From Leifsonia sp. TF02-11 (GTDB taxonomy: Bacteria > Actinomycetota > Actinomycetes > Actinomycetales > Microbacteriaceae), in contig NZ_JAGEKP010000003.1 in assembly GCF_017565305.1 (NCBI RefSeq), forward strand, positions 434,001-498,000: a stretch of 64,000 bases of DNA. The letters run 5' to 3'. Each line of letters begins with the position of its first letter. Positions within the stretch are counted from its first letter, which is position 1. This document shows positions 43,208 through 59,681 of the stretch, one piece after another. The notes below the pieces were generated by a model. The model worked only from the letters and a program-made list of their open reading frames with translations, did not search any database and had not been told where the DNA came from. A program made the position numbers and the translations under genes.

Positions 43208-43309
43208 TGTGTTTCCCGCCGTCCTCCGCCCGACCGGACGGTGTCTGCCGGCTGCCGGACCACCCGGCAGCGCGCAACCATCCTGGCACCATCTCCCACC
43301 GAGGCGCGG

Positions 43310-43927
43310 CTAGTGCAGGGATGCGTCGCGCGGCCCTACCTTCCATGTCGTGAACTCGGCGACGAACCCCGCGCGTTCAGGCGCGCAGAGGTAGGGTCCT
43401 GCCACGACCACAGCGTCTCCGTGAGGCGACCACGGCGCGAGTCTGATGAGTTCGAACTCCTCGTCTTCTGCCTTGGCGCGGACAGAGAGCGCCCCGGAAG
43501 CCCAACTCGCCCGAATCGTGACCTTCTTGTCCTGCCACCGGGGAACCGGCGCCGTGGACCAGTCTGAATACGCATCCGTGACGACGGTCGACAGGCGAAG
43601 GACGCCGTCCACGTATTCCGTTCCGGCCTTGACCCAGTGGTCTCCGTCCACGCGCACGATCACCCCGGCCTGATCGAACTGTTGCGACATGTCGGCCACG
43701 AACTCCACTTCCACGGCCGTGTCGACATCGAAACGTCGGAGCAGGCCGTGTGCGGAGTCCCGCTCGAACCCGTACGACGTCTTCTGCCACGCATCACTGC
43801 CTTCGATGGCTTCGACACGAAGGCCTCCGGAGGGCGTGTCCGTGACGGACGCGGGCGGATTGCGCCACGTGCCCTGATCCCAGGGAATGTCTCGCACGAG
43901 CGTTGCCGGGGTGGTGCTCTGTGTCAT
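43310..43927 (-). CDS. DUF1349 concanavalin-like protein
   Basis: A 205-residue soluble protein with the DUF1349 pattern: IPWDQGTWRNPPASV, WQKTSYGFERDSAHGLL, FDQAGVIVRVDGDHWVKAGT and VVVAGPYLCAPERAGF. The fold is a beta-sandwich lectin/glucanase type, and yeast relatives are annotated as regulators of enolase. It probably binds a carbohydrate. Its position next to the APC permease and FGGY-kinase cluster suggests a part in that pathway. ATG start at 43927. Confidence 0.83.
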   Translation of the reverse strand: MTQSTTPATLVRDIPWDQGTWRNPPASVTDTPSGGLRVEAIEGSDAWQKTSYGFERDSAHGLLRRFDVDTAVEVEFVADMSQQFDQAGVIVRVDGDHWVKAGTEYVDGVLRLSTVVTDAYSDWSTAPVPRWQDKKVTIRASWASGALSVRAKAEDEEFELIRLAPWSPHGDAVVVAGPYLCAPERAGFVAEFTTWKVGPRDASLH

Positions 43928-43977
43928 CGATCGTCCTTCCGCCTGACGATGGCCCTCGCCGGCGATCTGCCGTCCCT

Positions 43978-45522: not shown

Positions 45523-45621
45523 GAGCTACTCCTAGCTTCTTTGCTGGCCGAGGGGGAAACGATCCGCGGGTTCGTTCCAGTAAGTGAAGCGAGGATGTGG
45601 GTTCGGTGGAAGGTTGGAGCC

Positions 45622-45639
45622 GTTATGGAGTGATAAGCC
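45622..45639. promoter_or_regulatory. TTAT/ATAA motif upstream of the APC permease
   Basis: GTTATGGAGTGATAAGCC contains TTAT and ATAA half-sites and the string TGATAAGCC. The same string occurs in the LysR-YjbQ intergenic region at 46567. A shared LysR site is plausible, about 100 bases upstream of the permease start. Confidence 0.4.
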
Positions 45640-45646
45640 GAGCCGA

Positions 45647-46552
45647 TCAGTCCCGTGGCTCGGGCCGGGACGTGCTGACCATGTGCTCTACCAACCGACG
45701 GGCCGGAGTGGTCAGGCGCTCAGGGCGCCAGGCGATCGCGGTGTAGCTGACCGGACGATCGATGATCGGGACGAACTGGATTCCGGGGCGGTCGTAGAGC
45801 CGCACCATCGACGACGTCGTGAAGCTCAGCCCGACCCCGCGCGAGACCAGGGTCGCCTCCGCCTCGTAGGTGGCGGCCTCGGCGGCGATCTGCGGTTCCT
45901 TCCCTCCGCGGGCGTCGGCGGCGTACCAGTACTCGCGCCATTTGCCTGCGGACTTCGGTGCCACCACGATCGGCTCGTCGAGGAGCTCCTCGATCCGGAG
46001 CTCCTCCCGGCCGGCCAAGCGGTGCGACCGCGGAAGGCACGCCACCCAGGACTCCTCGGCGACGATCGCCAGCTGCATGTCCGGCACGTCGACCGGCGGG
46101 CGGAGCAGGGCGATGTCGGTGGCGCCCGACGCCAGTCCCGCGGTGGGGTCGGAGAAGTCGTACTCGATGGTCTCGACCGTGATGTCGGGGAAGACGGTTT
46201 CGATGCCGTCCAACAATTGGAACAGCAGGTCCGCGCCGGTTCCGATGAGGTAGCCGAGCCGGACATGACCGTAGTCCACCAGGAGCGCGACGGCTTCGAG
46301 CGCTGCGTCGACACCCGCGAGCGCCGACCGCACGTGGGGCAGCCACTCACGTCCGGTCGCCGTGAGCGAGACGGACCGGGTGTCACGATCGAACAGGCGG
46401 TCGCCGATGACGCGCTCCAGGTTCTGGATGGCCGCGGACAGTGCCGGCTGCGTGATGAAGAGCTTCTCCGCGGCGCGCCGGTAGTTCAACTCGGTTCCGA
46501 GGGCCTCGAAGTAGCGAAGCGATCTCAGATTCACGTCCGGGAAGGACCTCAC
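45647..46552 (-). CDS. LysR-family transcriptional regulator
   Basis: A 301-residue protein. The N-terminal LysR helix-turn-helix (LRYFEALGTELNYRRAAEKL, then TQPALSAAIQNLERVIG) is followed by a type 2 periplasmic-binding-like effector domain (GHVRLGYLIGTGADLLFQLL). It lies between the APC permease gene (same strand) and the divergent YjbQ-kinase-isomerase genes, so it is the likely pathway regulator. GTG start at 46552. Confidence 0.92.
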   Translation of the reverse strand: MRSFPDVNLRSLRYFEALGTELNYRRAAEKLFITQPALSAAIQNLERVIGDRLFDRDTRSVSLTATGREWLPHVRSALAGVDAALEAVALLVDYGHVRLGYLIGTGADLLFQLLDGIETVFPDITVETIEYDFSDPTAGLASGATDIALLRPPVDVPDMQLAIVAEESWVACLPRSHRLAGREELRIEELLDEPIVVAPKSAGKWREYWYAADARGGKEPQIAAEAATYEAEATLVSRGVGLSFTTSSMVRLYDRPGIQFVPIIDRPVSYTAIAWRPERLTTPARRLVEHMVSTSRPEPRD

Positions 46553-46566
46553 GTCACCCTTTCGAT

Positions 46567-46584
46567 TGATAAGCCCCCGTTATG
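46567..46584. promoter_or_regulatory. Candidate LysR-binding site in the divergent promoter region
   Basis: TGATAAGCCCCCGTTATG holds inverted ATAA/TTAT half-sites separated by 7 bases, of the dyad type bound by LysR proteins. It is 15 bases upstream of the LysR start and ~90 bases from the YjbQ start. TGATAAGCC and GTTATG recur at 45622-45639. Confidence 0.45.
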
Positions 46585-46673
46585 TGGTCATTGTAACTAG
46601 CAGTTTCCGCCGGGATGGCGCGCGATCGCAGACTGAGGCTCTAGTCGCTGCACCAACGAGAGCAGGTAGAAGC

Positions 46674-47171
46674 ATGCGCAGTCAGAGTCGATCGATCACG
46701 GTGGAGACCCCCGCTCGACAGGAGTTCTTCGACGTCACCGCGCAGCTGGAGGACTTCGTCGCCGCAGAGGGTGTGGGCGACGGCATCGCCGTGGTCTACT
46801 CGCCCCACACGAGCTGCTGCGTGATCCTCCAGGAGGAGTCGGAGGACACCACCTACTACGGCACCCAGCTACTGCTCCAGGACACGCTCAACGTCTTCGC
46901 GAAGATCGCGCCGCCGGCGCGTCACGAGGGCCAGTACCTGCACCCCGGCCCCATCCACATCCGCAACGCGGGCGAGCTGCGCGACGAGCTGCCCGAATGG
47001 GGACTGAACACGGACGGCCACATCATCTCGTCCATCCTCGGGCGCTCGGAGACCATCCCGATCGTCGCCGGCCGTCTCGTGCTCGGCGAGTTCGGCCGGG
47101 TGTACTTCGGTGACCTCGACTCGGTGCGGGCTCGGACGCGCACGGTCCACTTCCAGCTCGTCGCGGGCTGA
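46674..47171 (+). CDS. YjbQ/UPF0047 family protein
   Basis: A 165-residue protein with the family signatures VVYSPHTSCCVILQEESED and HIISSILGRSETIPIVAGRL. YjbQ of E. coli has weak thiamine-phosphate synthase activity, but its main role is unknown. The gene is first in a run with the FGGY kinase (2 bases to the next start), an arrangement that suggests a metabolic-repair or auxiliary role. ATG at 46674. Confidence 0.9.
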   Translation: MRSQSRSITVETPARQEFFDVTAQLEDFVAAEGVGDGIAVVYSPHTSCCVILQEESEDTTYYGTQLLLQDTLNVFAKIAPPARHEGQYLHPGPIHIRNAGELRDELPEWGLNTDGHIISSILGRSETIPIVAGRLVLGEFGRVYFGDLDSVRARTRTVHFQLVAG

Positions 47172-47173
47172 CG

Positions 47174-48625
47174 ATGCTCGTCTACGCAGTCGATATCGGC
47201 ACGACCAACCTCAAGGTCGTGCTGTACGACGGAGAGCTCCGGCGGCTGGCCACAGCCTCCGCGCCCGCCGTGTACGCGCGGGAGGGCGTGCGTGTGGAGT
47301 TCGACCCGGCGCAGCTCTTCGACACTCTGATCGAGCTCATCGGCCGATGTGCCGACGCCGCCGATTCCGCCGGCCGCGACGACGCGGTGATCGCCCTGAC
47401 GGGACAGGCCGAGTCGTTGGTGCTGCTGGATCGCAATGGTGAACCGATCCGCCCCGGGCTGTCCTGGCTGGATGACAGAGCTGTCGCGGAGGCCTCCGAG
47501 CTAGAGGAGCGCTTCGGCGCCGACGCGGCCTTCGCCGTAACGGGAGAGCCGTTCCCCACCGCGACCTGGCCCGCGGCGAAACTCCGCTGGCTGCGCCGTC
47601 ACGAGCCGGAGACGCTGGCCGCCACGCGGTCGGTCCTGATGATCAAGGACTACATCGCCTACCGGCTCACCGGTGCGTTCGCCGGTGACGCCTCCACCCG
47701 AGGGTTCTCGTACCTTTGGGATGTCAGGAACGGCTCGTACTGGAACGCGATGATCGACTTCTGCGCGGTGCCCGCCGAGAGCCTCCCGCGCGTCGTCGCA
47801 GCCGGGACCGAGCTGGGCGCCGTTTCGAATGAGGTCGCCGAGAGCCTCCCGTCGGCCGTGCGTTACCGGGTCAACATCGGCGGCCTGGACCACTTCTGCG
47901 CGATGGTCGGAACCGGGTCGTATGTCCACGGCAGCGTCAGCGAGTCGGCCGGCACAGTCCTGTCGCTCTCCGCGCTCGCGCGCGACTGGCGATTCGACCC
48001 CGCGCGCAAGGTGTCCTTCCACGCAGGCCTCCGGCCAGGCGACACGGTGCTCTTCAACGGCGTCGACGGCGGCGGAGCGGCGCTCGACTGGTTCCGCGTC
48101 CAGGGACTCGGCGGGATGCCCTACTCCGAGCTGGAGAGCCTGCTCGCATCTCGGGACCACCGGAACCCGCCGATGTTCCTGCCGTACCTGACAGGGGTCA
48201 ACCCGCCCGACTACTTCCCGCACGCTAAGGGCGCCTTCCTGGATCTCGATCTCGGTCACGACCGCGTCGATCTGGCGTATGCGGTCGAGGAGGGGATCGC
48301 GCACCTGCTGCGGCGCAACGTCGAGTATTTCGACGGCGACACACCGCAAGAGATCGTCTCCACCGGGGGAGGCGCCGCGTCCCCGTTCTGGAACCAGCTG
48401 AAGGCGGACGTCTGCGGCGTGGACGTCGTGGTGCCCGATGAGCTGGAGGCCACCTGCCGTGGCGCGGCCGTCCTCGCACTGGCTGCCGAGGGGGCGGTGA
48501 GTGATTTTCGGGACGCCGGAATCGAGGTATCGCCGCCCCTTCGGTACACGCCGTCCCGGGACGCACGACGCGACGAACGCTACGCGCGCTTCGGTGACTA
48601 CCTGCGCCGACTGTTCGAGCCCTGA
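47174..48625 (+). CDS. FGGY-family carbohydrate kinase
   Basis: A 483-residue kinase. FGGY_N begins VYAVDIGTTNLKVVLYDGEL, with the substrate region LSWLDDRAVAEASELEERF. FGGY_C contains GSVSESAGTVLSLSALARD, NGVDGGGAALDWFR and the ATP motif STGGGAASPFWNQLKADVCG. It phosphorylates a sugar, polyol or sugar acid; sequence alone does not tell which. The partners downstream (TIM-barrel isomerase, TPI-like protein and SDR) resemble four-carbon polyol (erythritol/threitol) pathways. It is immediately after YjbQ. Confidence 0.9.
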   Translation: MLVYAVDIGTTNLKVVLYDGELRRLATASAPAVYAREGVRVEFDPAQLFDTLIELIGRCADAADSAGRDDAVIALTGQAESLVLLDRNGEPIRPGLSWLDDRAVAEASELEERFGADAAFAVTGEPFPTATWPAAKLRWLRRHEPETLAATRSVLMIKDYIAYRLTGAFAGDASTRGFSYLWDVRNGSYWNAMIDFCAVPAESLPRVVAAGTELGAVSNEVAESLPSAVRYRVNIGGLDHFCAMVGTGSYVHGSVSESAGTVLSLSALARDWRFDPARKVSFHAGLRPGDTVLFNGVDGGGAALDWFRVQGLGGMPYSELESLLASRDHRNPPMFLPYLTGVNPPDYFPHAKGAFLDLDLGHDRVDLAYAVEEGIAHLLRRNVEYFDGDTPQEIVSTGGGAASPFWNQLKADVCGVDVVVPDELEATCRGAAVLALAAEGAVSDFRDAGIEVSPPLRYTPSRDARRDERYARFGDYLRRLFEP

Positions 48626-48657
48626 TCGCGAACGACGAGAAAGTAGAGAAACGAACG

Positions 48658-49464
48658 ATGAAGTTGTGCTGCTCATCCCCGATGGTCCCTGGTGAGACGT
48701 TGACGGCCAAGGCCGACCTGCTCAGGGGCTGGGGCTATGACGCCATCGCGGTCTTCCAGCCGCTCGAGACGTGGGGCGCCGCCGCGCGCGACGAGCTGTT
48801 CGCGCTCGAGGCCCGGACAGGTATCCGCCCTGTCGAGTTCGTCCTGGTGGACGACGTGTACGGGAACGCCATGTCCGCCGACCCGGAGCTGCAAGCGCGG
48901 TGTCGGGCAATGTACCGCGAGACCGCCGAGGTCTGCGCCGATCTCGGTGCCGTCACCGAGATCGAGTTCGAATACGGCGCGCAAAACCCACTGCCCCTCT
49001 TCGACCCGTTCCAGCAGCTGAGTTCCGCCCAGCACGACGCCTTCGTGACCTTCTACCGCGAGATGCTCGGTCGGGTGGAGGGCAGCGAAGCGCGTGTCCT
49101 CCTCGAACCGATCAACCGCTACGAGAGCCGCTACCTGAACCGGGTGGAGGACAACCTGCGCATCATCGAGGAGGTCGCCCATCCGAACGCGGGCCTGCTG
49201 CCCGACCTCTTCCACATGTCGATCGAGGAAGCCGATCCTGCCCGATCGCTGCGGGAAGCAGCGGATCGCATCGTCCACGTGCATCTGGGCGACAGCAATC
49301 GGCTGCTCCCCGGTCACGGTCATCTCGACTGGTCGGCGGTGTTCGACGCGTTGCATGATGTCGGCTACAGCGGCTACCTGAACCTCGAGTGCTCCACCGA
49401 GGGCGACCCGGCGGTGAGTCTCCCCGCCACCGCCGGCCGGCTGCGGAAGCTCCTTGACCGATGA
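48658..49464 (+). CDS. Xylose-isomerase-like TIM-barrel sugar (phosphate) epimerase/isomerase
   Basis: A 268-residue AP-endonuclease-2-like TIM barrel with metal-binding residues in LLEPINRYE (Glu), LPDLFHMSIEE (Asp, His), VHVHLGDSNRLLPGHGHLDW (His) and LNLECSTEGD (Glu). These suit epimerisation or isomerisation of a keto-sugar (phosphate), as in EryC, tagatose 3-epimerase or hydroxypyruvate isomerase relatives. It follows the kinase by 32 bases and overlaps the next gene by 4. Confidence 0.85.
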   Translation: MKLCCSSPMVPGETLTAKADLLRGWGYDAIAVFQPLETWGAAARDELFALEARTGIRPVEFVLVDDVYGNAMSADPELQARCRAMYRETAEVCADLGAVTEIEFEYGAQNPLPLFDPFQQLSSAQHDAFVTFYREMLGRVEGSEARVLLEPINRYESRYLNRVEDNLRIIEEVAHPNAGLLPDLFHMSIEEADPARSLREAADRIVHVHLGDSNRLLPGHGHLDWSAVFDALHDVGYSGYLNLECSTEGDPAVSLPATAGRLRKLLDR

Positions 49465-50168
49465 GTGCCTTATTGACCGCGCCCTTCTTCGAGATCGGGC
49501 CGAAGAACCTCCTGCGTCGCCCGGAGCTGGAAGAGTTGGCCCGGGCGGCCGGAGAAGCCGGCAGGGAGCTCGGCGTCGCGGTCGTGATCACCGTCCCGAA
49601 CGTGATGGTCGCACCGATCGCCGAACTCGACACCGGCGTCCTCGTTTTCGGCCAGAGCATGGACCCGGATCGGCTCGGCGCGTCATTCGGCCGGGTCACC
49701 GCAGAGGGCCTACTCGACGCGGGCGCGGTCGGCGTGATGCTCAATCACGATGCCGACCCGTTGGACGCCGCGACATTGGCCGCGACCGTCGATCGCGCGC
49801 ATGAGACCGGGCTGGAAACAATCGTGTGCGCGGGAACTGAGAGCGCCGCATTGGCCTTCACCGCTCTGGCGCCGTCGGCCGTGCTCATCGAGCCGCCGGA
49901 TCTCATCGGGACGATCGGCGGAGCCGAACGCGACTGGGTTCGGCCGCTCACCGAGGAGATGCACCGCGTCGACGCACACGTCCTCGCGATGCACGCCGGA
50001 GGCGTCTCCTCTCCGATCGTCGCCCGGGGAATCATGGCGGCCGGCGCCGACGGTACCGGCTCGACCAGCGGTGTCCTCACGGCCCAGGATCCGCTCGTCG
50101 CGGCGGTGCATTTCATCGCGGCGGCCCGCGCGGGCTGGGACGACGCCCGCTCGAACGCCCGTCTCTGA
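49461..50168 (+). CDS. Triosephosphate-isomerase-like protein
   Basis: A 235-residue TIM barrel without conventional N-terminal TPI sequence but with family elements: FEIGPKNLLRRPELE (Lys), VLVFGQSMD, AGAVGVMLNHDAD, VLIEPPDLIGT (catalytic-Glu position) and MHAGGVSS (phosphate loop). Such divergent TPI proteins interconvert tetrose or triose phosphates in erythritol-type pathways (EryH/TpiB). The ATG at 49461 overlaps the preceding stop by 4 bases. Confidence 0.75.
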   Translation: MSALLTAPFFEIGPKNLLRRPELEELARAAGEAGRELGVAVVITVPNVMVAPIAELDTGVLVFGQSMDPDRLGASFGRVTAEGLLDAGAVGVMLNHDADPLDAATLAATVDRAHETGLETIVCAGTESAALAFTALAPSAVLIEPPDLIGTIGGAERDWVRPLTEEMHRVDAHVLAMHAGGVSSPIVARGIMAAGADGTGSTSGVLTAQDPLVAAVHFIAAARAGWDDARSNARL

Positions 50169-50199
50169 TCACAACCGATAACCAACGAAGGAATCACAC

Positions 50200-50967
50200 A
50201 TGGACACGAACCTCTCCGGCAAGACCGCCGTCATCACGGGTGGAGCACGCGGGATCGGCTACGCCGTCGCCCGGTCGCTCGCCGCGGAAGGCGCCGACAT
50301 CGCGCTCCTGGACCTACTCGACACGGTCGAGGAGTCGGCCAGGAAGATCTCTGACGACTACGGAGTCCGCACGCACGGACAGCGCTTGGACGTCACCGAC
50401 CAGGACGCGACGAACGCGGCCTTCGAGACGATCGCCGATCGTTTGAGCGTCCCGCAGGTGCTCCTCACCGCAGCCGGAATCGAGATCAACGGCGATTCGA
50501 TCGACGTCCCCGCTGCGGCCTGGCGGAAGGTGATCGACGTCAACCTGACCGGCACGTTCTTCTCGGCGCAGGCGTTCGGACGCGGTCTCCTCGCTTCCGA
50601 TCTCCCCGGCAGCGCGATCCTGATCTCGTCGATGTCGGGTGAGATCGTCAACGTCCCGCAGTGGGCCGCGTCGTACAACTCGTCGAAGGCTGCCGTCGCG
50701 CATCTCGCAACGTCGCTCGCCGTCGAATGGGCTGCGTCGGACATCAGGGTCAACTCGATCGCCCCCGGCTATGTTCTGACCGACCTGACGCAGCAGATCC
50801 TCGACCGCGAGCCGGAACTCGAAGCGGACTGGGTCTCCCGCATCCCTCAGGGCCGCATGGCGACGCCGCAGGACCTGACCGGCCTGGTGACGTTCCTGGC
50901 GTCGAACGCCTCGAGCTATCTCACGGGGCAGCAGATCGTGATCGATGGCGGCTACACCGCGATCTGA
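50200..50967 (+). CDS. SDR-family NAD(P)-dependent dehydrogenase
   Basis: A 255-residue classical SDR. The cofactor loop is TGGARGIG near residue 14, the NAG-like motif is LLTAAGIE, the catalytic Ser is in LISSMSG and the YNSSK motif supplies Tyr and Lys. It oxidises or reduces a hydroxyl of the pathway substrate, as in polyol or sugar-acid dehydrogenases. The strong terminator at 50999 marks the end of this operon. Confidence 0.9.
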   Translation: MDTNLSGKTAVITGGARGIGYAVARSLAAEGADIALLDLLDTVEESARKISDDYGVRTHGQRLDVTDQDATNAAFETIADRLSVPQVLLTAAGIEINGDSIDVPAAAWRKVIDVNLTGTFFSAQAFGRGLLASDLPGSAILISSMSGEIVNVPQWAASYNSSKAAVAHLATSLAVEWAASDIRVNSIAPGYVLTDLTQQILDREPELEADWVSRIPQGRMATPQDLTGLVTFLASNASSYLTGQQIVIDGGYTAI

Positions 50968-50998
50968 GAGAGCGTGCACGGCGAATCGAAGGCCAGAG

Positions 50999-51057
50999 AG
51001 CCCAACCAGCTCAAGAAGTGACAATCGGTGTCACGTCTTGAGCTAGTTGGGCTTTCT
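50999..51057. terminator. Long hairpin terminator after the SDR gene
   Basis: Two arms (50999-51023 and 51029-51053) pair over 25 positions with two mismatches around the loop ATCGG, followed by TTCTC. The inner segments AGCTCAAGAAGTGACA and TGTCACGTCTTGAGCT are inverted copies of each other. The left arm region also reappears next to the tRNA-Gly at 59580-59610, and GCTAGTTGGGC is repeated at 51061-51071. Confidence 0.75.
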
Positions 51058-51061
51058 CAAG

Positions 51062-54000
51062 CTAGTTGGGCACAGGAGTCGACTTGTGACGACGGGAATG
51101 GTTCTCGTGGCCAGTGGCGCCCAGGCGGCGGATCAAAGCTGCGGCCAAACCCGCTGTCAGGAGGGCGGCGGCTAGCAGTAGGCCGCCGGTCGGGTCGCTT
51201 CCGGTGTCGGAGAGGCTCCCTGCGGGCGTCGCCGGTGGTGACGGTGCCGGCGCAGGAGCCGGCGCCCAGACGGCGTAGAGCGTGAGGTCGGCGGTGAGGG
51301 TCGAGACCACCAGTCGGTCGTACGCGGGGTCGGGAGCCGTCGCGGACGGCGAGGTCGACCAGCCGAGGAAGGCGGAACCGGGCCCGGTGAAGAGCAGGTC
51401 TGCGGCGTCCGGATAGGTGATCGAGGCGCCAGGCGGCCCGTCCCACGCCGTCGAGCGCGAGAGCCCGGCATTCTCGCGGAACGTCACGGTGAACTGCGGA
51501 TCGGGGTTCGCATAGGCGGCGGTCAACGTCACACCCCCCGCGCCGAAGCGGACCGTCTGGCCGGCCTGATAGAGGCCGTCGCCCGGCGCGGGGACGGTGA
51601 TGATGCGCATAGCTACGACGCCGGAAGCCAGACGCCAGCCGACGAAGACCTCGTCGTCGCGCCGCAGCGACGAGCCGTCGGCGACGATCGCACTGGAGCC
51701 GGCGTCGTAGCGATACGGGTCGCTCGGGACGGCCCCCGACGTGTTCCTGTCGCCGAAGTAGAGCATCGGGAACGGCGCGGCGGCCGGCTGCTGCCAGCGG
51801 GCGTACAGGCTCAGGTCGCCGCCGACCGGGGTGTCGAAGTCGTAGGGGACGAAGAAGCCCTCTGCTGTGCGCTGGAACCAGCCGACGAAGGTCTGGCCGT
51901 CCGGTTGCGGTGGCAGCGGGGCAGGTTCGGTCGCCGTGCCCTGGTCCTCGACGATTTGGGTGAGGCCGGCGATCGGATCGGGCGCGGATGGGTGGTCGTA
52001 GAACTGCACGGTGTGCGGGTCGTTCAGCCATTTGGCGTACAGGACGAGGTTGCTCGGCGGCATCGTCGCGCCGGCGAAGGTGAACGGCACGTTGAAGTCC
52101 GAGTCGGTGTACCAGCCCTGGAAGACGTCGCTGCCCCGTGTGGGGTCGGCCGGCTGGAGCTGTTCGAGCGAGCCTTGGTAGGGGATGTCCGCGACGGGTG
52201 GGATGGCGGTGCCGCCTCCTGTCACGAACGTCAGCGTGTAAATGTTGCGGCTGTAGAACTGGTAGCGGTACTTGTCGTTGGTGTTGCCGGAGTTGTTCAG
52301 CTGATACAGCCGGTTCGTCGGCGCATCGAGTTGGAAGTAGTTGCCGACGGTGTTCGCGCCGGTGCCGTACCCGACGTAGGAGGTGAAACCTTCGATGGGA
52401 CCGGCGACCTGCCGGTCGCCGGTCGTGGCCCAGTACCAGGCCGTTCGGTACTGGGAGAAGATCTGGTGCCCGGCGGGGATGTCCGCGCGGACGGTGGTCT
52501 TGTTGTTGTTGTACAGGGTCGCGACGTGCAGAGGGTTGTTGGGGGTGCCGTCCGGCCCGATCACCGGATCCGGCGCCGGCGCCGTCTGGTCCACGGTCTC
52601 GGTGTAGATGAACCGCTGCGTCTGGTTCTGTGTTCTGCTCGCCGCCATTGCGCCGGTCAGTCGTGTCGTGCGGGCCGGGAGGTTCACCGATGACGTGTCC
52701 GCGTACGCGCCGGTGTAGGTGGCGTTGAAGACGTCCGGTGTGACCTGTTGCGGACCCCAGCCGCGCAGGACGCAACTCTGGTTCTGGGTGCCAGCGTCGA
52801 AGGCGGTGATCACACCGGACCCGTCCGTTTGAGAGAGCGGCACGGGGGCGACATTGGCGGCCTGCATGTCGAAGCCGATCTTCTCCCGCACCGAGAACGT
52901 GCCGAGAAGCTGGCCGCCGCCGGGTTGCGTCGACTGGTAATAGGTCGTGCCCCCGACGGCCATGGTGACGTCGTAGCTTGTCGTGCGAACGCAGGGGGTC
53001 GAGGTGTTGACGGTGCCGCCGGGGCTGATCAGCGTGAAGTCCGCCCGCCACAGCGCCCGGGTCAGGTATACGTTCACGACGGTGGAGCCGTCGCCCTTCA
53101 CTGTGATGTTCTGCTGGCTGACGGCCAAGTCGGCGAACGCCATCGGGTCCGGCTGCACGTTCGAGGGGTCGAGTTGAGCGCGCACGAGACCCTGGATGGA
53201 GGCGGGGACATCGGCCTTGGTCGCCGGTCCACTCACGGTCGCCCCCGCGACGGCGGTGGAGGTGATGTCGTCGAGGAAGTCGTAGGTGGCCGGGTCCGCC
53301 AGCTGCGCAGGGCTCAGGGCGCCGTCGGCCGCTCCCCAGCTGGGCGGCGTTCCACCGGCTGGGGTGAACACCGGCGCGGGATAGGCGGCGGGCACCACGT
53401 TCGCCTTCTCCAGCCAGTAGCTGACGTGGTAGTCGACGCTGTCCCCGCTCCATCCGGCGTAGAGGGTCGTCGTGGCCGTGATCGGGAAGGCGATCGGCTG
53501 GGTGCGCGCTTCGTCCGCCCACCACTGTGTGAACGTGTAGCCGGGGCGGGTCGGCGGCGGGACGGCCGCGAGATCGGCCGCCGTGAATTCGGTGTTCGGT
53601 TCGAGGACGAACGACGGCTCGACCGCGGTCCCGTCCGTCACATAGGAGACGGCGAAACCGGCCGCGAAGACCGGGATGAGCCGCAGATTCGCCGTGACCG
53701 GCGACGAGAAGTCGTACGGCGTCCGCGACGCGTCGCCCTGCCGATACCAGTCGCCGGTGAACACCTGTCCCGCGGGTACGTGCGACACATCGGGGGCGAT
53801 GTCTCCGATGGGCGCGCCGTCTGCAACCTCGTCGGCGTCGATGACGTGCTGCGCGTCGGTGCCGGACGGCCCTGCGAGGAACTGCACGACGTGGGTGTCG
53901 GTGAAGCGCGCGTCGACGACCAGGTCGGACGTGACCACGGTCGTCAGGAAGTCGAAGGGCACGACCGAGCCGCCCGCGTCGGTCACCCAACCGTTGAAGA

Positions 54001-54256
54001 CGCCATCGGCCGCGGGAGGAGCCGGTTGCCGCGGTGCGTGGCCGCCATCGACGACCTGCACGCTCGCGACGGTGCGGCCGAGCGAACGGAATGTGACGGT
54101 GTGGACGTTCCACACACCCGGGGTCGTCGCACTTCCCGTGGGCGCGGAACTGACGGCGGGGGCGGCGATGACCGGACCATCGACGAGTGCCGGGGCGAGC
54201 AGGCCAATGAGCACACCGGTCGCGACCGCACCGACTACTGCCCCCGACATCCTCAT
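51062..54256 (-). CDS. Large wall-anchored surface protein with Listeria-Bacteroides repeats
   Basis: The protein has 1064 residues with a signal peptide (VVGAVATGVLIGLLAPALV). About seven repeats of the Listeria-Bacteroides/InlB B type follow, each with FxGW-(Y/F) then (L/V)YAxW or similar: FNGWVTDAGG, FTQWWADEART with LYAGWSG, FQGWYTDSDF with LYAKWLN, FVGWFQRT with LYARWQQ, and FLGWSTSPSA with LYAVWAP. A Pro/Ala linker leads to LSDTG, a hydrophobic helix and a positive tail, a degenerate LPxTG sorting signal. It is probably an adhesin or stalk protein. I chose the ATG at 54256, preceded by GGAGGGG. Confidence 0.87.
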   Translation of the reverse strand: MRMSGAVVGAVATGVLIGLLAPALVDGPVIAAPAVSSAPTGSATTPGVWNVHTVTFRSLGRTVASVQVVDGGHAPRQPAPPAADGVFNGWVTDAGGSVVPFDFLTTVVTSDLVVDARFTDTHVVQFLAGPSGTDAQHVIDADEVADGAPIGDIAPDVSHVPAGQVFTGDWYRQGDASRTPYDFSSPVTANLRLIPVFAAGFAVSYVTDGTAVEPSFVLEPNTEFTAADLAAVPPPTRPGYTFTQWWADEARTQPIAFPITATTTLYAGWSGDSVDYHVSYWLEKANVVPAAYPAPVFTPAGGTPPSWGAADGALSPAQLADPATYDFLDDITSTAVAGATVSGPATKADVPASIQGLVRAQLDPSNVQPDPMAFADLAVSQQNITVKGDGSTVVNVYLTRALWRADFTLISPGGTVNTSTPCVRTTSYDVTMAVGGTTYYQSTQPGGGQLLGTFSVREKIGFDMQAANVAPVPLSQTDGSGVITAFDAGTQNQSCVLRGWGPQQVTPDVFNATYTGAYADTSSVNLPARTTRLTGAMAASRTQNQTQRFIYTETVDQTAPAPDPVIGPDGTPNNPLHVATLYNNNKTTVRADIPAGHQIFSQYRTAWYWATTGDRQVAGPIEGFTSYVGYGTGANTVGNYFQLDAPTNRLYQLNNSGNTNDKYRYQFYSRNIYTLTFVTGGGTAIPPVADIPYQGSLEQLQPADPTRGSDVFQGWYTDSDFNVPFTFAGATMPPSNLVLYAKWLNDPHTVQFYDHPSAPDPIAGLTQIVEDQGTATEPAPLPPQPDGQTFVGWFQRTAEGFFVPYDFDTPVGGDLSLYARWQQPAAAPFPMLYFGDRNTSGAVPSDPYRYDAGSSAIVADGSSLRRDDEVFVGWRLASGVVAMRIITVPAPGDGLYQAGQTVRFGAGGVTLTAAYANPDPQFTVTFRENAGLSRSTAWDGPPGASITYPDAADLLFTGPGSAFLGWSTSPSATAPDPAYDRLVVSTLTADLTLYAVWAPAPAPAPSPPATPAGSLSDTGSDPTGGLLLAAALLTAGLAAALIRRLGATGHENHSRRHKSTPVPN

Positions 54257-54380
54257 GCGACGCGCCCCTCCGTCCACGCAGCAGATCGACCCAGTGTGCA
54301 CCATTCGGGGGGCACACGGCCAGGCCTGTCCCTCTGACCCAATTCGCGCCCCGCCAGGGTTTCGCCGTTGCCGCGACCTC

Positions 54381-54599
54381 CTAGGGTTCGACCACGGTGC
54401 CAGGCGCGTCGGAACTGTCCAGGAAGGCGAACTTCGAGAGGTTCCACACAGGCAGGCCGTTGGGAAGCACATCGTCGAACTCGTCGACGGTTGCGATGAA
54501 GCCACGCTGGGCGTCATCGAAGTCCTGTCGGTCGTCGAACGGCAGTTCGTGCAGCAGTCGCGCGTTCGCGTTCTCGGTGACATCGCTCGCTTCGGTCAC
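54381..54599 (-). pseudogene. Truncated N-terminus of a type III alkylsulfatase (MBL fold)
   Basis: A 72-residue fragment starting at the GTG at 54599 behind GGAGGAG. Its sequence (TENANARLLHELPFDDRQDF, FIATVDEF, LSKFAFLDSSDAPGTV) matches from memory the start of SdsA1/BDS1-type alkylsulfatases, which are ~620 residues with a metallo-beta-lactamase core. Here a stop (TAG) ends the frame right where the enzyme would continue with a SLWRQ-type segment. The rest of the enzyme is missing and the large surface-protein gene follows 125 bases further on. It is a remnant without catalytic residues. Confidence 0.7.
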
Positions 54600-54767
54600 G
54601 TGTAGCTCCTCCCCGCTGGGCCGGCCGCCGTCGCGGGGCCGAATCACCGACAGGGAATCACATCCGATGGTCCAGCGGGAAGTGCGTTCGGGTGCCCCTA
54701 GACGATGTGGCCCGGCTGCAAGTAACGTCTGGCGCATTGCCGCGTCGGGCAAGGTGAGGAGGTGCCC

Positions 54768-56447
54768 GTGTCAGGGACGAGCACCCGTGAGAGTCGCTCC
54801 TTCCGGCTTCTCCCCGGGCTCACCGGTCACAACGTCGTCCGTGAGTTGTTGGCGGGCGTCACCTTGCTCGCGATCGCGATCCCGCTGAACATCGGGTACG
54901 CGCAGATCGCCGGGCTGCCGCCGACGGCCGGACTCTACGCGCTGGTCGTCCCCGCAGTTCTCTACGCCCTGACTGTGTCGTCGCGGCAGCTGGTCGCCTC
55001 CCCGGATGCCGCTGCTGCGGCCCTTGTCGCGTCCTCGATCGCCGGCCTCGCGGTGAGTCATGGCAACTACATCGCGTTGACGCTGGCGCAGGCGCTGATC
55101 GGTGGGGTGCTGTTCCTGGCGTGCGCGTTCCTCAAGCTGGGGTTCTTGGCGAACTTCCTCTCCAAGCCGATCCTCGTCGGCTTCGTCGGCGGCCTCGCGC
55201 TGGACATCCTCGTTTCGCAGGTGGCGAAGATGCTGGGCGTGAAGATCGACTCCGGCGGTGATTTCCTCGGCAAGGTCGTCGGTCTCGTAACGGGGCTGCC
55301 GAAGGCGAATGGCTGGTCCGTGCTGATCGCTGCCGGCGCCTTGCTCGTCCTCCTGCTGGGACGACGAATCGCGGCGGCCGTTCCGTGGGCGCTTGTGGTG
55401 CTCGTGGTCGGGACGATCATCGTGGTCCTCACCGACGCACCGGCCGCCGGAGTGTCAGTACTCGGGAAGGTGCAGGCCGGCCCGCCGACATTCACGTGGC
55501 CGGTCATCGACTGGTCGCAGTGGTTGGCCGTCATCCCCTCCGCGATCGCTCTCACCCTGGTCACTATGGGTGAGGGACTGCTGGTCTCCCGCTCGTATGG
55601 TGAGCGTCGGCACTACCCAACGAGCCCGAACCGTGACCTCTTCGCCTTCGGTGTCGGCAACCTCGGCGCCGGGATCACCGGCGGGTTCTTCCTCGGAACT
55701 TCCACCTCCCGCACCGCGGCAATGGACCAAGCCGGCTCCCGCACCCAGCTGCCGACACTCGTGACCGCGGTCGGGACGCTCGCGCTGCTGATCTTCGGCA
55801 CCGCCCTGCTGGAAGACATCCCATCGCCGGCGATCGGCGCGATCGTCGCCGTGGCTGTCTTCCCGCTGCTCGGCATCCCGGACTTCATCCGGCTGTGGCG
55901 ACTGGACAAGTTCGAGTTCGCGATCGGCGCCGCCTGCTTCCTCGGGGCGCTGCTCATCGGCCCGATCGCCGGAATCGTCATCGCATTCGTCCTCGCCGTG
56001 GTCAACGTCACCCGCCGCGCGGCGAACCCGCCCATCGACACCCTCGCCGTCGACGGCGACCCCGCCCACTCGCTCCTCGACGAAGCCGATCCCGGCACCC
56101 TCACCGCGCCCGGCGTGGTCGTCATCCGTCTGGCCGCACCGCTGTTCTTCGCCAACAGCACCGTGTTCCAGCAAGCTGTCGAGCACGCGGTCGAGACGAC
56201 TGAGGCCTCACACGTCGTCCTCGACATGGAGGCTGTCACCGACATCGACGTGACCGGCGCGGAGTCCTGGCAGGCAGTCCAGGACTTCCTCACCGCCCGC
56301 GGCGCCGACCTGTCGCTCAGCCGCGTCCGACCCGGCATACGCGACCGGCTGGCCCGCTTGGAGATCGCATCCGGGTTCACCGTCTTCGACACCAACCGTT
56401 CCGCGATCGCCGCGTTGCGCACCGACACCACCCCGCGAGCGGGTTAG
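54768..56447 (+). CDS. SulP-family anion transporter with STAS domain
   Basis: A 559-residue protein. A SulP membrane domain (IPLNIGYAQIAGLPPTAGLY, FLSKPILVGFVGGLALDILV) of about 12 helices is followed by a C-terminal STAS domain from ~445 (VVLDMEAVTDIDVTGAESWQ). Such proteins move sulfate, bicarbonate or other anions. It is adjacent to an alkylsulfatase remnant, so sulfate handling is a possible past link. I chose the GTG at 54768 because AGGAGG ends 5 bases before it; the GTG at 54762 is also in frame. It leads a run of four genes. Confidence 0.9.
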   Translation: MSGTSTRESRSFRLLPGLTGHNVVRELLAGVTLLAIAIPLNIGYAQIAGLPPTAGLYALVVPAVLYALTVSSRQLVASPDAAAAALVASSIAGLAVSHGNYIALTLAQALIGGVLFLACAFLKLGFLANFLSKPILVGFVGGLALDILVSQVAKMLGVKIDSGGDFLGKVVGLVTGLPKANGWSVLIAAGALLVLLLGRRIAAAVPWALVVLVVGTIIVVLTDAPAAGVSVLGKVQAGPPTFTWPVIDWSQWLAVIPSAIALTLVTMGEGLLVSRSYGERRHYPTSPNRDLFAFGVGNLGAGITGGFFLGTSTSRTAAMDQAGSRTQLPTLVTAVGTLALLIFGTALLEDIPSPAIGAIVAVAVFPLLGIPDFIRLWRLDKFEFAIGAACFLGALLIGPIAGIVIAFVLAVVNVTRRAANPPIDTLAVDGDPAHSLLDEADPGTLTAPGVVVIRLAAPLFFANSTVFQQAVEHAVETTEASHVVLDMEAVTDIDVTGAESWQAVQDFLTARGADLSLSRVRPGIRDRLARLEIASGFTVFDTNRSAIAALRTDTTPRAG

Positions 56448-56459
56448 AAGGGGCCGCCG

Positions 56460-57290
56460 ATGCGCACTGCCGCCTCACCCTCGGACGCTGCCGGCTTCTT
56501 CGCCGGCCTGGATCCCTGGTCGGTCCTGCTCGCGCTTGCCTCGGTGGTCGCGGGCGTGCTGCTGGGAATCGCCGTCCACCGCGTGACCGAGCGGCTGCTG
56601 AAACGCCTCGGCGGCCTTTCTCCGGAACTGGTCCGCCGGATCGCGCGGGGCGCCCGACTGGTGGTGATCCTGCTCGGTGTCGGGGTCGCGATCGCGTTCC
56701 TCGGTGCCCCGATCCAGCCGGTCCTCGCCGTCGCGGTGATCGTGGCCGTGATCGCCGGCCTCGCTCTCCGCGGGATCAGCGAGAACTTCGCGGCCGGCGT
56801 CGTGTTGCAGACCCGCCGGCCCGTCAAGGTCGGGGACGTGGTCGAGATCGCCGGGTTCACCGGCGTCGTGCGGGAGATCAACGGAAGGACGACCGTCATC
56901 CGGACCACGGACGGCCGGGTCGCTCACATCCCGAACGCCGACGTCGTCGGCAACCCGTTCGTCAACGAGTCCGAGCTCGGCGGCCGCCGGGCTGAGGTCG
57001 AAGTGCGAGCGAAGGCCACCTCGGGCGAACGCGCGGACCTGCGGGCCGCCGTGGCGGCGGCCTGCGAGAAGGTGGCCGGGGTCCGCAGCCGCGACCCGGT
57101 CCGGGTGCTCACGGTCACTGCCGAGCCCGACCGGGTCATCTACCGGGTCCGGTTCTGGCACGACCCCGGGCACGGGCCGGAGGTGACCGCCGCGGTCGTC
57201 GACGCTCTCGCCGAGCAGCTGGAAGGTCGGGACGCCGTCGTCACCTCCGAGCACCCGCCACCGCCGCTCACCCCGCCGGGGACGGTGTGA
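56460..57290 (+). CDS. MscS-family mechanosensitive channel
   Basis: A 276-residue protein. Three membrane helices include the pore-lining third, with the conserved GISENFAAGVVLQTRRPVKV and VGDVVEIAGFTGVVREINGR. A cytoplasmic beta domain follows with VAHIPNADVVGNPFVN. It releases solutes on hypo-osmotic shock. It lies 12 bases after the SulP gene and one base before the next gene, so these form one operon. Confidence 0.92.
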   Translation: MRTAASPSDAAGFFAGLDPWSVLLALASVVAGVLLGIAVHRVTERLLKRLGGLSPELVRRIARGARLVVILLGVGVAIAFLGAPIQPVLAVAVIVAVIAGLALRGISENFAAGVVLQTRRPVKVGDVVEIAGFTGVVREINGRTTVIRTTDGRVAHIPNADVVGNPFVNESELGGRRAEVEVRAKATSGERADLRAAVAAACEKVAGVRSRDPVRVLTVTAEPDRVIYRVRFWHDPGHGPEVTAAVVDALAEQLEGRDAVVTSEHPPPPLTPPGTV

Positions 57291-57291
57291 C

Positions 57292-58011
57292 GTGGGGCAG
57301 TTGGTTCTGGACCTCGTCCCGCTGCTGTTCGGCATCCTGCTCAGTCCACTCGCACTGATGGCGTTGATCGCGGTGCTCGTCTCGGCCCGAGCACGAACCA
57401 ACGGGATCGCGTTCGCACTCGGCTGGCTGGCCGGCATCGCCCTCGTGCTGACGATCTGCTTCCTTCTGTTCGGCGCGCTCCAAGTGCGCTCGGTGCGGCA
57501 CCCGCCACTGTGGGTACCGATCGTGCAGCTCCTGGTCAGCGCCGTCCTGATCAGCGGCGCGGTCGCCGTCTATCGTCGCGGGAAGGCGCGGATCGAGCAG
57601 ATGGCGGCCGCACGCTCACCCCGCCAGGTCGCCGCGGCGGCACCGCAGCTGCCCGGCTGGTTGCAGCAGGTCGAGTCGTTCCGGCCGATCCGGACATTCC
57701 TGCTGGGACTTGGCCTGTTCGTCCTCAACCCGGTGGACGCCTCCTGCGCGATCATCGCAGCACTCGACGCCCGGCAGGCTGCGGTCGACGACACGACCGC
57801 CGCGGTCACCCTGATCGTCTTCGGACTGGTCGCCTCGCTGTCGATCGTCGCACCCGTGGTCATCGTCGTCGTCCGCGGCCGCGCCGCCGAACCGTTCCTC
57901 GCCCGCATCCGCACCTGGGTCGCCGGGAACACGCACGTCCTCAACGCCGCACTGCTGCTCGTCATCGGCGTCCTCCAACTCCAAAAGAGCCTCTCCGGCC
58001 TGATCGGCTGA
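57292..58011 (+). CDS. GAP-family (Sap/GPL-addressing-like) membrane protein
   Basis: A 239-residue protein with six predicted helices. The opening VLDLVPLLFGILLSPLALMA and the central FLLGLGLFVLNPVDASCAII fit the GAP family (Sap, GPL addressing protein) known from mycobacterial glycopeptidolipid export. Function here is unknown. The GTG at 57292 begins one base after the MscS stop. Confidence 0.78.
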   Translation: MGQLVLDLVPLLFGILLSPLALMALIAVLVSARARTNGIAFALGWLAGIALVLTICFLLFGALQVRSVRHPPLWVPIVQLLVSAVLISGAVAVYRRGKARIEQMAAARSPRQVAAAAPQLPGWLQQVESFRPIRTFLLGLGLFVLNPVDASCAIIAALDARQAAVDDTTAAVTLIVFGLVASLSIVAPVVIVVVRGRAAEPFLARIRTWVAGNTHVLNAALLLVIGVLQLQKSLSGLIG

Positions 58012-58034
58012 ACCACCACACGAAAGGACACCCC

Positions 58035-58376
58035 ATGCCCCTCCTCCGACGCTTCGGCCGCCCCGGCCTGATCGGGCTCGCCGTCCGCACCGCCGTGGTC
58101 GCCGGCACCGCCACCGCTGTCACCGGCGGAATGGTCCGCCACCAGCAACGGCGCAGCCAAGAGCAGTACGAGCAGCAGCAGTACGAAGCAGGCCAGCAAC
58201 AACAGGCCATGCAGCAAGCGGCCGCCGACGCTGTCCAGCAGCAGACGCCGGCGCCCTCGCCGGCGCCGGGCGGGGAAGACATGCTCGATCAGCTGACCGC
58301 ACTCACACAGCTGCATCAGCAGGGCGCGCTGACCGACGCCGAGTTCACCGCCGCGAAGGCGAAGCTCCTCGGGTAG
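58035..58376 (+). CDS. SHOCT-domain small membrane protein
   Basis: A 113-residue protein. One hydrophobic stretch (LIGLAVRTAVVAGTATAVTG) is followed by a Gln-rich linker and a C-terminal SHOCT motif (QLTALTQLHQQGALTDAEFT, AAKAKLLG). SHOCT proteins are often beside membrane proteins and may act in oligomerisation. The ATG at 58035 follows GAAAGGA. Confidence 0.85.
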   Translation: MPLLRRFGRPGLIGLAVRTAVVAGTATAVTGGMVRHQQRRSQEQYEQQQYEAGQQQQAMQQAAADAVQQQTPAPSPAPGGEDMLDQLTALTQLHQQGALTDAEFTAAKAKLLG

Positions 58377-58393
58377 GCAGCGGTGCCTGGTGG

Positions 58394-58600
58394 TCAGGGC
58401 TGGAAGGGAAGCCACTCCTCGCGCGACAGGCGCGTCGGGGAGCCGGCGCGTTCGACCACCCATTCCTCAGGCGTCGACGACACGTAGGTGACGAGGATGG
58501 TCTCCGGCGTCCACGCATCCGCCTGCTGGCTCCACCGTACGAGGTGGAATTCCGCGCCGACCTTCGGTGCGTTCCCGAGCGGGATCTCGAACTCACGCAT
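58394..58600 (-). CDS. 68-residue hypothetical protein
   Basis: A short soluble protein, MREFEIPLGNAPKVGAEFHL, continuing with ETILVTYVSSTPEEWVVERA. Start at the ATG at 58600 follows GGGAGG at 5 bases. It has a beta-rich look and no recognised family; it may belong to the accessory stretch. Confidence 0.55.
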   Translation of the reverse strand: MREFEIPLGNAPKVGAEFHLVRWSQQADAWTPETILVTYVSSTPEEWVVERAGSPTRLSREEWLPFQP

Positions 58601-58745
58601 CGCAACCTCCCCCTGGCCGATGGCCCGGACTCTACCGACAACCAGACAGACTCGTCTAGCCAGGAGCGAAACCACGATTGCGTCTGCCCAGTGGTGCGAT
58701 CTCGCGGGTAGAGTCCGGCCACGTCAGCCCGGGGAAGAGGACCTC

Positions 58746-58961
58746 ATGTCACGCTTTGTCGCCACGTTGCTGCCGGTCGGAGAAGACGGGTACCCGCAGG
58801 TAATCGACATCCCGATGCCCGCAGGGGAGACTGAACTGCCGGCTCGGCTCCGGCTCCCGATCGATACCCCCGACGGCCGGCAGTTCGAGGTGTGGGAACT
58901 GGCGGAGCGCACTGGGCGGCGGGCGGCCACCTACCGGCTGGCTCGGCTGGTCGGGCCGTAG
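58746..58961 (+). CDS. 71-residue hypothetical protein
   Basis: A short soluble protein, MSRFVATLLPVGEDGYPQVI, then PARLRLPIDTPDGRQFEVWE and TYRLARLVGP. It is divergent from the previous small gene. No family was recognised. A GAAGAGG-like element precedes the ATG. Confidence 0.5.
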   Translation: MSRFVATLLPVGEDGYPQVIDIPMPAGETELPARLRLPIDTPDGRQFEVWELAERTGRRAATYRLARLVGP

Positions 58962-59089
58962 CCTCGTCCAAGAGCCGTCGCATTCCACTGGCGGGCTAGA
59001 CGAGCCCATGACCCTCTGAGAGGATCTCGGCATTGCTCTGTACGCGAACCAGCTCGTACCGCGGCCCGAACCGTGCCACATCGTATCCG

Positions 59090-59538
59090 CCGACCATGCA
59101 GAACCTGTCCACGACGTACGCGAAAGAGATCCGTGACCGCGGGAAGATCTTCGTGCCAGCGGGGCGTTCCCACACCGCGTTCATCGACGCCCGCGACATC
59201 GGCGCCGTCGCCGCCGCGGTGTTCACCTCGGCCGGTCACGACCGGAAGGCGTCACCCTCTCCGGTGAACAGTCGCTCACCTACCAGGCCGTCGCCCGCAT
59301 CATGACCGACGTCCTCCGGCGGCCCATCCGCTACACCCGGCCGAGTGAACAGTCATACCTGGCCGCTCTCGCCGAGCAGGGCGCCCCGCAGGACTACATC
59401 GACGTGCAGAAGATGATCTACCGGGTCGTGCGCCTGAACATCTCCGCATTCCCGAACCACGCTGTCCAGAAGCTCACCGGTCGGCCGGCGACACGGTTCG
59501 ACCAGTTCGTCGACGACTACCGGGACGTGTGGTCCTGA
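59090..59538 (+). pseudogene. Truncated, frameshifted NmrA/SDR-type NAD(P)-binding oxidoreductase
   Basis: The remnant reads MQNLSTTYAKEIRDRGKIFV, PAGRSHTAFIDARDIGAVAA from about 59096. It then shifts frame near 59240-59250 and continues as VTLSGEQSLTYQAVARIMTD, YTRPSEQSYLAALAEQGAPQ, LTGRPATRFDQFVDDYRDVW to 59538. Together these match the C-terminal ~150 residues of NmrA-like oxidoreductases. The cofactor-binding N-terminus is gone and the frame is broken, so it should be non-functional unless the break is a sequencing error. It lies next to the tRNA-Gly and its flanking repeat. Confidence 0.75.
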
Positions 59539-59579
59539 CCCTGGAAGCTGCGGGCCCATGCCCAAGTAGAACGAGAAAT

Positions 59580-59610
59580 GCCCACCTAGCTCAAGAAGTG
59601 ACACAATCGG
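59580..59610. repeat. Direct repeat at the tRNA-Gly 3' end
   Basis: GCCCACCTAGCTCAAGAAGT and the following GACACAATCGG match 51000-51028 with two mismatches and a 2-base indel, in the same orientation. It touches the discriminator base of the tRNA-Gly gene. This may be one end of an island, or a shared terminator relic. Confidence 0.55.
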
Positions 59611-59681
59611 AGCGAGTGACGGGAATCGAACCCGCGCTATCAGCTTGGGAAGCTGAGGTTCTACCATTGAACTACACTCGC
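59611..59681 (-). tRNA. tRNA-Gly (anticodon CCC)
   Basis: On the minus strand the 71-base gene folds as a cloverleaf. The acceptor GCGAGTG pairs with CACTCGC, the D arm is GTTC-AATGGTA-GAAC, and the anticodon stem TCAGC/GCTGA encloses TTCCCAA with anticodon CCC. The T arm GCGGG-TTCGATT-CCCGT has one G-U pair. The 3' CCA is not encoded (TCCG follows). Confidence 0.93.

Follow-up and report, generated by a model that had tools for sequence, protein, structure and literature searches.

Tn7 has a heteromeric transposase of TnsA and TnsB, the ATPase TnsC, and ends that are asymmetric and contain repeated sites; it makes a 5-bp target duplication as it inserts downstream of an intact glmS gene. One site can come to hold several Tn7-like elements side by side. 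Here we describe a locus of this kind in Leifsonia sp. TF02-11, within a stretch of 64,000 nucleotides (called the window here) from a genome of 5.09 Mb. Positions 51029-59603 of the window (8,575 bp) very probably form a Tn7-like transposon that is non-autonomous and lies 3 bp downstream of tRNA-Gly(CCC), the single tRNA gene that ARAGORN finds in the 64 kb, and beside an older insertion of the same family. Its autonomous kin encode TnsA, TnsB and TnsC together with a protein carrying DUF4379 zinc fingers, which we propose as the target selector. The family resembles Tn7 (TnsABC and TnsD) in its TnsA, TnsB and TnsC, its asymmetric ends with repeated sites, its 5-bp duplication and the intact conserved gene upstream. 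It differs in the site, which is glmS in Tn7 and tRNA-Gly here, in the fourth protein, which has DUF4379 fingers and no significant match to TniQ, and in that the window copy carries no tns genes.

Further comparisons can be drawn from the accessible parts of three publications. Benler 2021 (PMC8649781) reports a clade 2 of Tn7-like transposons that is dominated by actinobacteria and has no characterised member, and it also reports insertions downstream of tRNAs; the hosts of the present family are likewise actinobacterial. For TnsD/TniQ that survey, in its accessible text, used PF15978, PF06527 and alignments from CRISPR-associated transposons (CASTs), whereas neither Pfam model is among the matches of the fourth proteins described here. 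Different tRNA genes have repeatedly been adopted as attachment sites via TnsD/TniQ or CRISPR, according to the available part of PMC11406308. The tRNA-targeting TnsD proteins of type I-B2 and I-D CASTs are close in principle, as they guide insertion to tRNA genes by protein; in the accessible text, however, these selectors are TniQ/TnsD proteins with C-terminal regions of the helix-turn-helix type that work alongside CRISPR, whereas the C-terminal region here consists of DUF4379 fingers (PMC11406308, PMC10293859). TnsF of Tn6022 is also a target selector with several zinc fingers, but it is described there as recombinase-derived, as working with a separate TniQ and as targeting comM (PMC10293859, in part). 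By title and abstract, none of the matches listed in our literature search, in which subscription journals are thinly covered, described a DUF4379 selector or tRNA-Gly as a site of actinobacterial Tn7-like elements, and none of the matches listed for DUF4379 dealt with Tn7.

The features that define the element and its attachment site are as follows.

51029..51073, plus strand: left (L-type) end, TGTCAC and two sites of about 20 bp (L model, E 1.2e-13)
59554..59603, minus strand: right (R-type) end, adjoining the tRNA gene (R model, E 1.6e-17)
51024..51028, no strand: target-site duplication ATCGG, left copy
59606..59610, no strand: target-site duplication ATCGG, right copy, its GG being the 3′ end of the tRNA gene
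59609..59681, minus strand: tRNA-Gly(CCC), the attachment gene, intact (ARAGORN)
50998..51023, minus strand: R end of an older element, second site lost (R model, E 4.5e-4)

The end models were built without the window, from six L ends and seven R ends, one of the latter (L177) from another contig of the window's own genome. Across the 64 kb, the best match of the L model is 51029-51073 and that of the R model is 59554-59603. The older R end at 50998-51023 is followed by an R match of E 4.3, and all other matches in the window have E of at least 0.15, leaving aside cross-matches of each model to the opposite end type. In the aligned copies from the window and its relatives, the L end reads TGTCACGTCT..GCTAGTTGGGC, followed by a second site TTCTCAAGCTAGTTGGGC, and the R end reads TGTCACTTCTTGAGCTAG.TGGGC, followed by TTTCTCGTTCTACTTGGGCATGGGC. 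The two ends are inverted and asymmetric, and both start with TGT and contain repeated internal sites, as in Tn7-like elements. The two sites of about 20 bp in the L end are likely binding sites of TnsB. The stop codon of the surface-protein gene (51062) sits within the second of them. At the right side, the R end is followed by CA (59604-59605) and then by ATCGG, which runs into the GG of the tRNA gene. The CA most likely arose by a TG slip at the terminus, and conditional on this 2-bp slip, ATCGG flanks the element on both sides as a 5-bp duplication.

The L177 R end (L177 8908; G000:C1:125907) is solitary and lies about 140 bp downstream of tRNA-Pro(GGG); no partner L end was found in the 18 kb read around it.

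A preliminary description of this DNA had proposed a decayed genomic island bounded by direct repeats of about 30 bp and ending at tRNA-Gly(CCC). The direct repeat is real. Positions 51000-51023 and 59580-59603 are 92% identical over 24 nucleotides, and the identity resumes through ATCGG after the 2-bp CA offset. The 17-base core of the repeat (at most 3 mismatches) matches the window four times, against 0.24 expected, and none of 100 shuffled sequences reached four. Two of the four copies are inverted (51036-51052 and 51055-51071), and the pairing that had been overlooked is that of 51029-51073 on the plus strand with 59554-59603 on the minus strand, the inverted ends of one element. The copy at 51000 is thus not the island edge; it belongs to the older neighbour, and the true left end is at 51029 in inverted orientation. 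An island ending at this tRNA is therefore supported, with Tn7-like transposition as the corrected mechanism, and its boundaries are transposon ends rather than integrase att sites.

In an integrase-type island, a tyrosine recombinase would have entered at the 3′ end of the tRNA gene, the repeats would be attL and attR, and the integrase would since have been lost. The direct repeat, the tRNA 3′ end and the variable cargo are all compatible with this. In G028 (relatives are given by our genome handles), a copy of the 3′ part of tRNA-Gly is seen by eye about 0.35 kb from the tRNA (L076, about 2146-2183), which suggests that such islands used this tRNA there. In the window, however, the repeat covers only two bases of the tRNA gene, those of the duplication, and there is no att repeat that restores the tRNA 3′ end. 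As had been noted before, no integrase occurs among the open reading frames (ORFs) scanned between the ends. The inverted, asymmetric L and R ends and the 5-bp duplications contradict att repeats, and the same ends bound a TnsABC element in G029. We regard an integrase origin as very improbable. Tn7-like transposition accounts both for a direct repeat that starts just outside the tRNA and for the absence of an integrase.

The hairpin at this junction had been described as a possible terminator or a relic of transposon ends. An inverted repeat with a 5-base loop does span 50995-51057, and it would suit a reading in which the repeats are transcription terminators or hairpins like repetitive extragenic palindromic (REP) sequences, with ordinary variable DNA as the cargo. 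The hairpin, however, arises where the ends of two transposons meet across a single 5-bp duplication. The genome yielded few copies, all but one of them at this locus (one scan scored the best candidates only), and the same ends bound other cargo in relatives, with end pairs in G033, G026 and G029 and, off-site, in G009. The few copies and the structured pairing led us to reject terminators or REP-like hairpins, and this reading is the least probable of those considered.

Insertion of the Tn7-like elements is serial, with the newcomer next to the tRNA and the older element outside it. In the window, the gap between the older R terminus (51023) and the younger L end (51029) is 5 bp. All four complete tRNA-adjacent L-R pairs show the same distance of exactly 5 bp from the L end outward to an older R terminus, which is seen clearly in the window and in G026 and, despite its decay, can still be recognised in G029; in G033, six terminal bases are all that is left of it. 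We attribute this spacing to repeated insertion at one intact site. Exact 5-bp duplications are present in G033 (AACGG), G026 (CCTGG) and the off-site element of G009 (GGCGG), and four of five bases agree in G029 (ACTGG/CCTGG). In G003, the AGTGG outside the L end corresponds to AGT plus GG at its tRNA, though no R end remains there. Behind the tRNA-adjacent element of G003 stands an older one (L083 6907-11426) whose flanks are alike in four of five bases and which contains fragments of the DUF4379 protein. The off-site element of G009 (L176 5646-9920; 4.3 kb, same ends) carries, by eye, a histidine kinase, a response regulator and a CPBP-type protein.

When the 70 bp beside the tRNA were scored with leave-one-out R models, an R end adjoined tRNA-Gly(CCC) in 10 of the 28 genomes of the genus, the window's included (E <0.01). 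In the remaining 18, G024 has a degraded R end (E 0.02), G025 a doubtful one (E 0.15), and 16 have none.

The machinery is best seen in G029, in which the same ends enclose 32.2 kb. One operon near the L end encodes TnsA (NF033179, E 6e-46), TnsB (Mu-transpos_C and part of rve), TnsC (TniB, AAA_22) and a fourth protein of 642 residues with four DUF4379 treble-clef zinc fingers (E 4e-47). The fourth protein has no TniQ match in Pfam, and no TniQ match was found on the contig that bears the element. Genes of the AbiTii (PADLOC, E 2e-31), TIR and Ymh types lie beside the tns genes. Remnants of the DUF4379 protein are present in the tRNA-adjacent element of G026 (92% over 154 residues) and, at 80-90%, in the older element of G003. 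The ends are therefore tied to this machinery in three genomes. The window element itself encodes neither TnsA nor TnsB, and we class it as a non-autonomous derivative. The window's genome gave no match for TnsA (actinobacterial), Mu-transpos_C (TnsB) or TniQ in a search that did not include TnsC, and on this account the element is now non-autonomous.

G029 also has a second Tn7-like system (L207; G029:C31:114755-120697), with TnsA, a Mu-transpos_C protein and a classical TniQ. Both selector types therefore coexist in one genome.

The G029 fourth protein is matched (E ≤1e-20) in 20 of 398 Microbacteriaceae genomes, in 14 of 85 genera, and no relative was found among viral contigs. We examined ten of these 20 genomes and five further Leifsonia operons. 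Of 16 further Microbacteriaceae regions, 14 have the full set of TnsA, TnsB, TnsC and DUF4379 protein, encoded in that order; the exceptions are G324, which has only a fragment of the fourth protein, and G062, which had been picked for its end and not for its genes. Both ends were located for five of the 14 operons (G266, G398, G405, G035 and G040), such that TnsA, TnsB and TnsC are encoded in one operon between the ends. The fourth protein of these autonomous relatives carries about five zinc fingers in its C-terminal part, mostly of the DUF4379 type. Its N-terminal part, of about 300 residues, shows a shared motif and Cys/His residues by eye, and is about the size of the TniQ core given in the accessible part of PMC10293859.

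Complete elements were located by pairing the 3′ side of each tRNA with the best distant terminus sharing a duplication. An exact 30-base end search in seven regions found that of G029 only. A 48-base gapped score with an exact duplication required found those of G398 and G405, and a search started from the tRNA found that of G266, and those of G405 and G029 again. The last search found no partner for G324 and G062 and nothing for the tRNA-Arg regions of G022 and G026. A follow-up search for tRNA-Gly covered five genomes. In G040 and G035, no tRNA occurs in the first 78-80 kb, and one was found further out, on the side and strand predicted by the geometry of the other elements.

Complete elements stand at tRNA-Gly in five genera, each at a fixed site downstream of the conserved gene. 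The G029 element lies 3 bp from tRNA-Gly(CCC). That of G266 lies 3 bp from tRNA-Gly(TCC) (20.6 kb, CCAAT exact, score 22, with the next pair at 10) and that of G040 3 bp from tRNA-Gly(CCC) (41.9 kb, CCAGT exact, 188 bp between the L terminus and the DUF4379 gene end). The elements of G405 (37.2 kb, GCCCG exact, score 19 against 8) and G035 (48.9 kb, TATTC exact, score 21 against 11) lie 21 and 24 bp from tRNA-Gly(CCC), respectively. Two distance classes are thus seen, 3 bp and about 21-24 bp, about two helical turns apart. Among the ten genomes examined, an end lies beside tRNA-Gly in five, G040, G035, G266, G405 and G324; in G324, the operon is reduced to the fourth-protein fragment, and no partner end shares a duplication. 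In G062, from another genus, a window-type end (E 4e-12) lies 3 bp from tRNA-Gly(CCC).

From its sequence and position, the DUF4379 protein is probably the target selector. It stands fourth after TnsC in 15 operons (that of G029 and the 14 others), a TniQ match is absent, and attachment is to tRNA-Gly in five genera. A TniQ identity for it is unsupported both by Pfam and by profile-profile comparison; an earlier profile comparison with TniQ rested on a poor TniQ alignment. Alternatively, the element would be Tn7-like as described, with the DUF4379 protein as an accessory or cargo and some other factor picking the target. The lack of significant TniQ homology in the N-terminal part of a protein assigned from sequence would fit this, as would G398, whose element carries the protein yet is not at a tRNA. 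The constant fourth position, however, and the G029 contig free of TniQ speak for a selector, as do the fingers, which are 47-49% identical to those of G029 in the tRNA-Gly elements of G405, G266 and G040, although the trend is not clean. We consider an accessory role unlikely, if far less remote than an integrase or a hairpin origin. In G405, the fingers are 49% identical to those of G029, whereas the N-terminal part is only 28% identical.

Several observations weigh against a Tn7-like family addressed to tRNA-Gly by its DUF4379 protein. The duplication at the window is exact only if the two extra bases count as a slip. The left end of the older element was not found (43.2-51 kb searched; L model over the window). 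The distance from the L end to the nearest older R end is 31 bp in G003, not 5, and the 4.3-kb element of G009 has no tRNA within the 18 kb read. Comparison of the N-terminal part with TniQ by hhalign gave E 0.05, which is not significant, and one of 30 shuffles did better. The finger trend is unclean, as G035, at tRNA-Gly, is only 37% identical to G029 in the fingers (32% in the N-terminal part), and G398, not at a tRNA, is 39% identical (40%). The terminal repeats of G040 are weak (score 7), and another candidate pair scores 8. The G398 element (G398:C1:1956173-1977500; 21.3 kb, TnsABC-DUF4379, CGAGA exact, score 24) has intact ends but two protein genes as its neighbours, and the tRNA-Gly search found no match in G398. 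By eye, a restriction-modification gene lies inside the element, and its flanks are genes for a metal-binding lipoprotein and an FAD oxidase. No tRNA-Gly occurs within the 38 kb read in G136 and G122. In G306 and G369, whose operons are on short contigs, the only tRNA-Gly match, a TCC gene, is on a different contig and lacks an adjacent end. Likewise, no tRNA-Gly occurs within the 60 kb read around the five other Leifsonia operons, whose fingers are dissimilar (23-31% identity to G029). A short-pattern scan of the 398 genomes matched six, and its backwards control matched seven, and the scan alone proves nothing; in another such scan the backwards control matched 13 of 20 genomes. Of the six pattern genomes, a location at tRNA-Gly was confirmed for G062, G008, G009, G025 (end E 0.15) and G032; the sixth is G393.

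With these points taken into account, we still favour the Tn7-like transposon and its proposed selector. By analogy with Tn7, TnsB would bind the sites at the ends, and TnsA and TnsB would cut and join at the TGTCAC termini. TnsC, the ATPase, would couple or recruit TnsAB to the target protein. The DUF4379 protein would bind the conserved tRNA-Gly gene, possibly reading it with its fingers, and insertion would follow at a fixed distance with a 5-bp duplication. As the tRNA is left intact, the site would be reused. Each newcomer would land against the tRNA, and the older elements, shifted outward, would lose their tns genes and decay.

Within the ends, the window element carries the following cargo.

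51062..54256, minus strand: surface protein, 1064 residues, four Listeria-Bacteroides (Flg_new) repeats (Pfam, E 3e-47)
54381..54599, minus strand: alkyl/aryl-sulfatase N-terminal remnant (E 2e-8 to 4nur, PSdsA)
54762..56447, plus strand: SulP sulfate-permease family protein with STAS (Pfam)
56460..57290, plus strand: MscS-type channel (Pfam)
57292..58011, plus strand: SfLAP/GAP family membrane protein (Pfam)
58035..58376, plus strand: SHOCT-domain protein (Pfam)
58394..58600, minus strand: orphan ORF, 68 residues, no Pfam match over the cut-off
58746..58961, plus strand: orphan ORF, 71 residues, no Pfam match over the cut-off, a stretch 68% identical in G009
59302..59538, plus strand: 78-residue fragment, no Pfam match over the cut-off, no match in the Protein Data Bank

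The preliminary description had correctly named the surface protein, the alkylsulfatase remnant and the SulP-MscS-GAP-SHOCT cluster; its oxidoreductase pseudogene, the 78-residue piece, could not be confirmed. The base composition is weak at best as a signature of foreign DNA. The GC fraction of the element (0.686) is only slightly below that of the rest of the window (0.703), and the GC content at third codon positions of the cargo is within the range of the neighbouring genes. None of the loci of SulP relatives (80 named, about a dozen of them from Leifsonia) contained such an end at E 0.05 or a tRNA-Gly(CCC).

The 51-59.6 kb block was compared with the tRNA-Gly neighbourhoods of 27 relatives rather than with whole genomes. 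Conserved synteny of the segment, which would speak against an island, was not found. Between the two ends of the element, only G009 aligns; its neighbourhood holds part of the cargo in reverse orientation (SulP 87%, MscS 79% over 140 residues, the small ORF 68%). G024, the closest relative at this locus, matches window 41312-50967 with 92.6% identity and has different DNA from the end of this shared block to the tRNA, namely 2.3 kb with a broken DUF4379 fragment. Two features lie beyond the older R end.

43314..50967, no strand: older variable block with permease, FGGY kinase, TIM-barrel and SDR genes (before the same tRNA in G024)
41312..43207, minus strand: DUF2207 membrane protein, the far edge of the variable zone (Pfam)

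Positions 43952-50978 of this block are found in G030, and mostly in G006, at other genomic loci. Of the 27 relatives, 12 have the DUF2207 gene within the fetched tRNA-Gly neighbourhood, and in G028 it is 0.7 kb from the tRNA. As it recurs beside tRNA-Gly, the variable zone comprises everything from about 43.3 to 59.6 kb.

The window element is ordinary debris, a passenger of a Tn7-like family. What had been a vague decayed island becomes an ordered pair of transposon insertions, which accounts for a genus-wide hotspot of gene gain at one tRNA. The family itself looks like a new Tn7-like variant: a DUF4379 protein takes the place of the selector in its operons, and its elements attach at tRNA-Gly in five genera. 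It points to a group in the Microbacteriaceae whose probable selector consists of DUF4379 fingers and not of a recognisable TniQ/TnsD, and surveys based on TniQ/TnsD models may have missed or mislabelled such selectors. As a tentative extension, of which we are less than half convinced, DUF4379 arrays may be natural modular DNA readers that steer Tn7-like transposition, with similar fingers leading to tRNA-Gly and others (G398, the five Leifsonia operons) to other sites; the array, and not the transposase, would then set the address and might be exchangeable. If the fingers do read the target, this would be a natural protein-guided system that inserts up to about 49 kb at tRNA-Gly genes.

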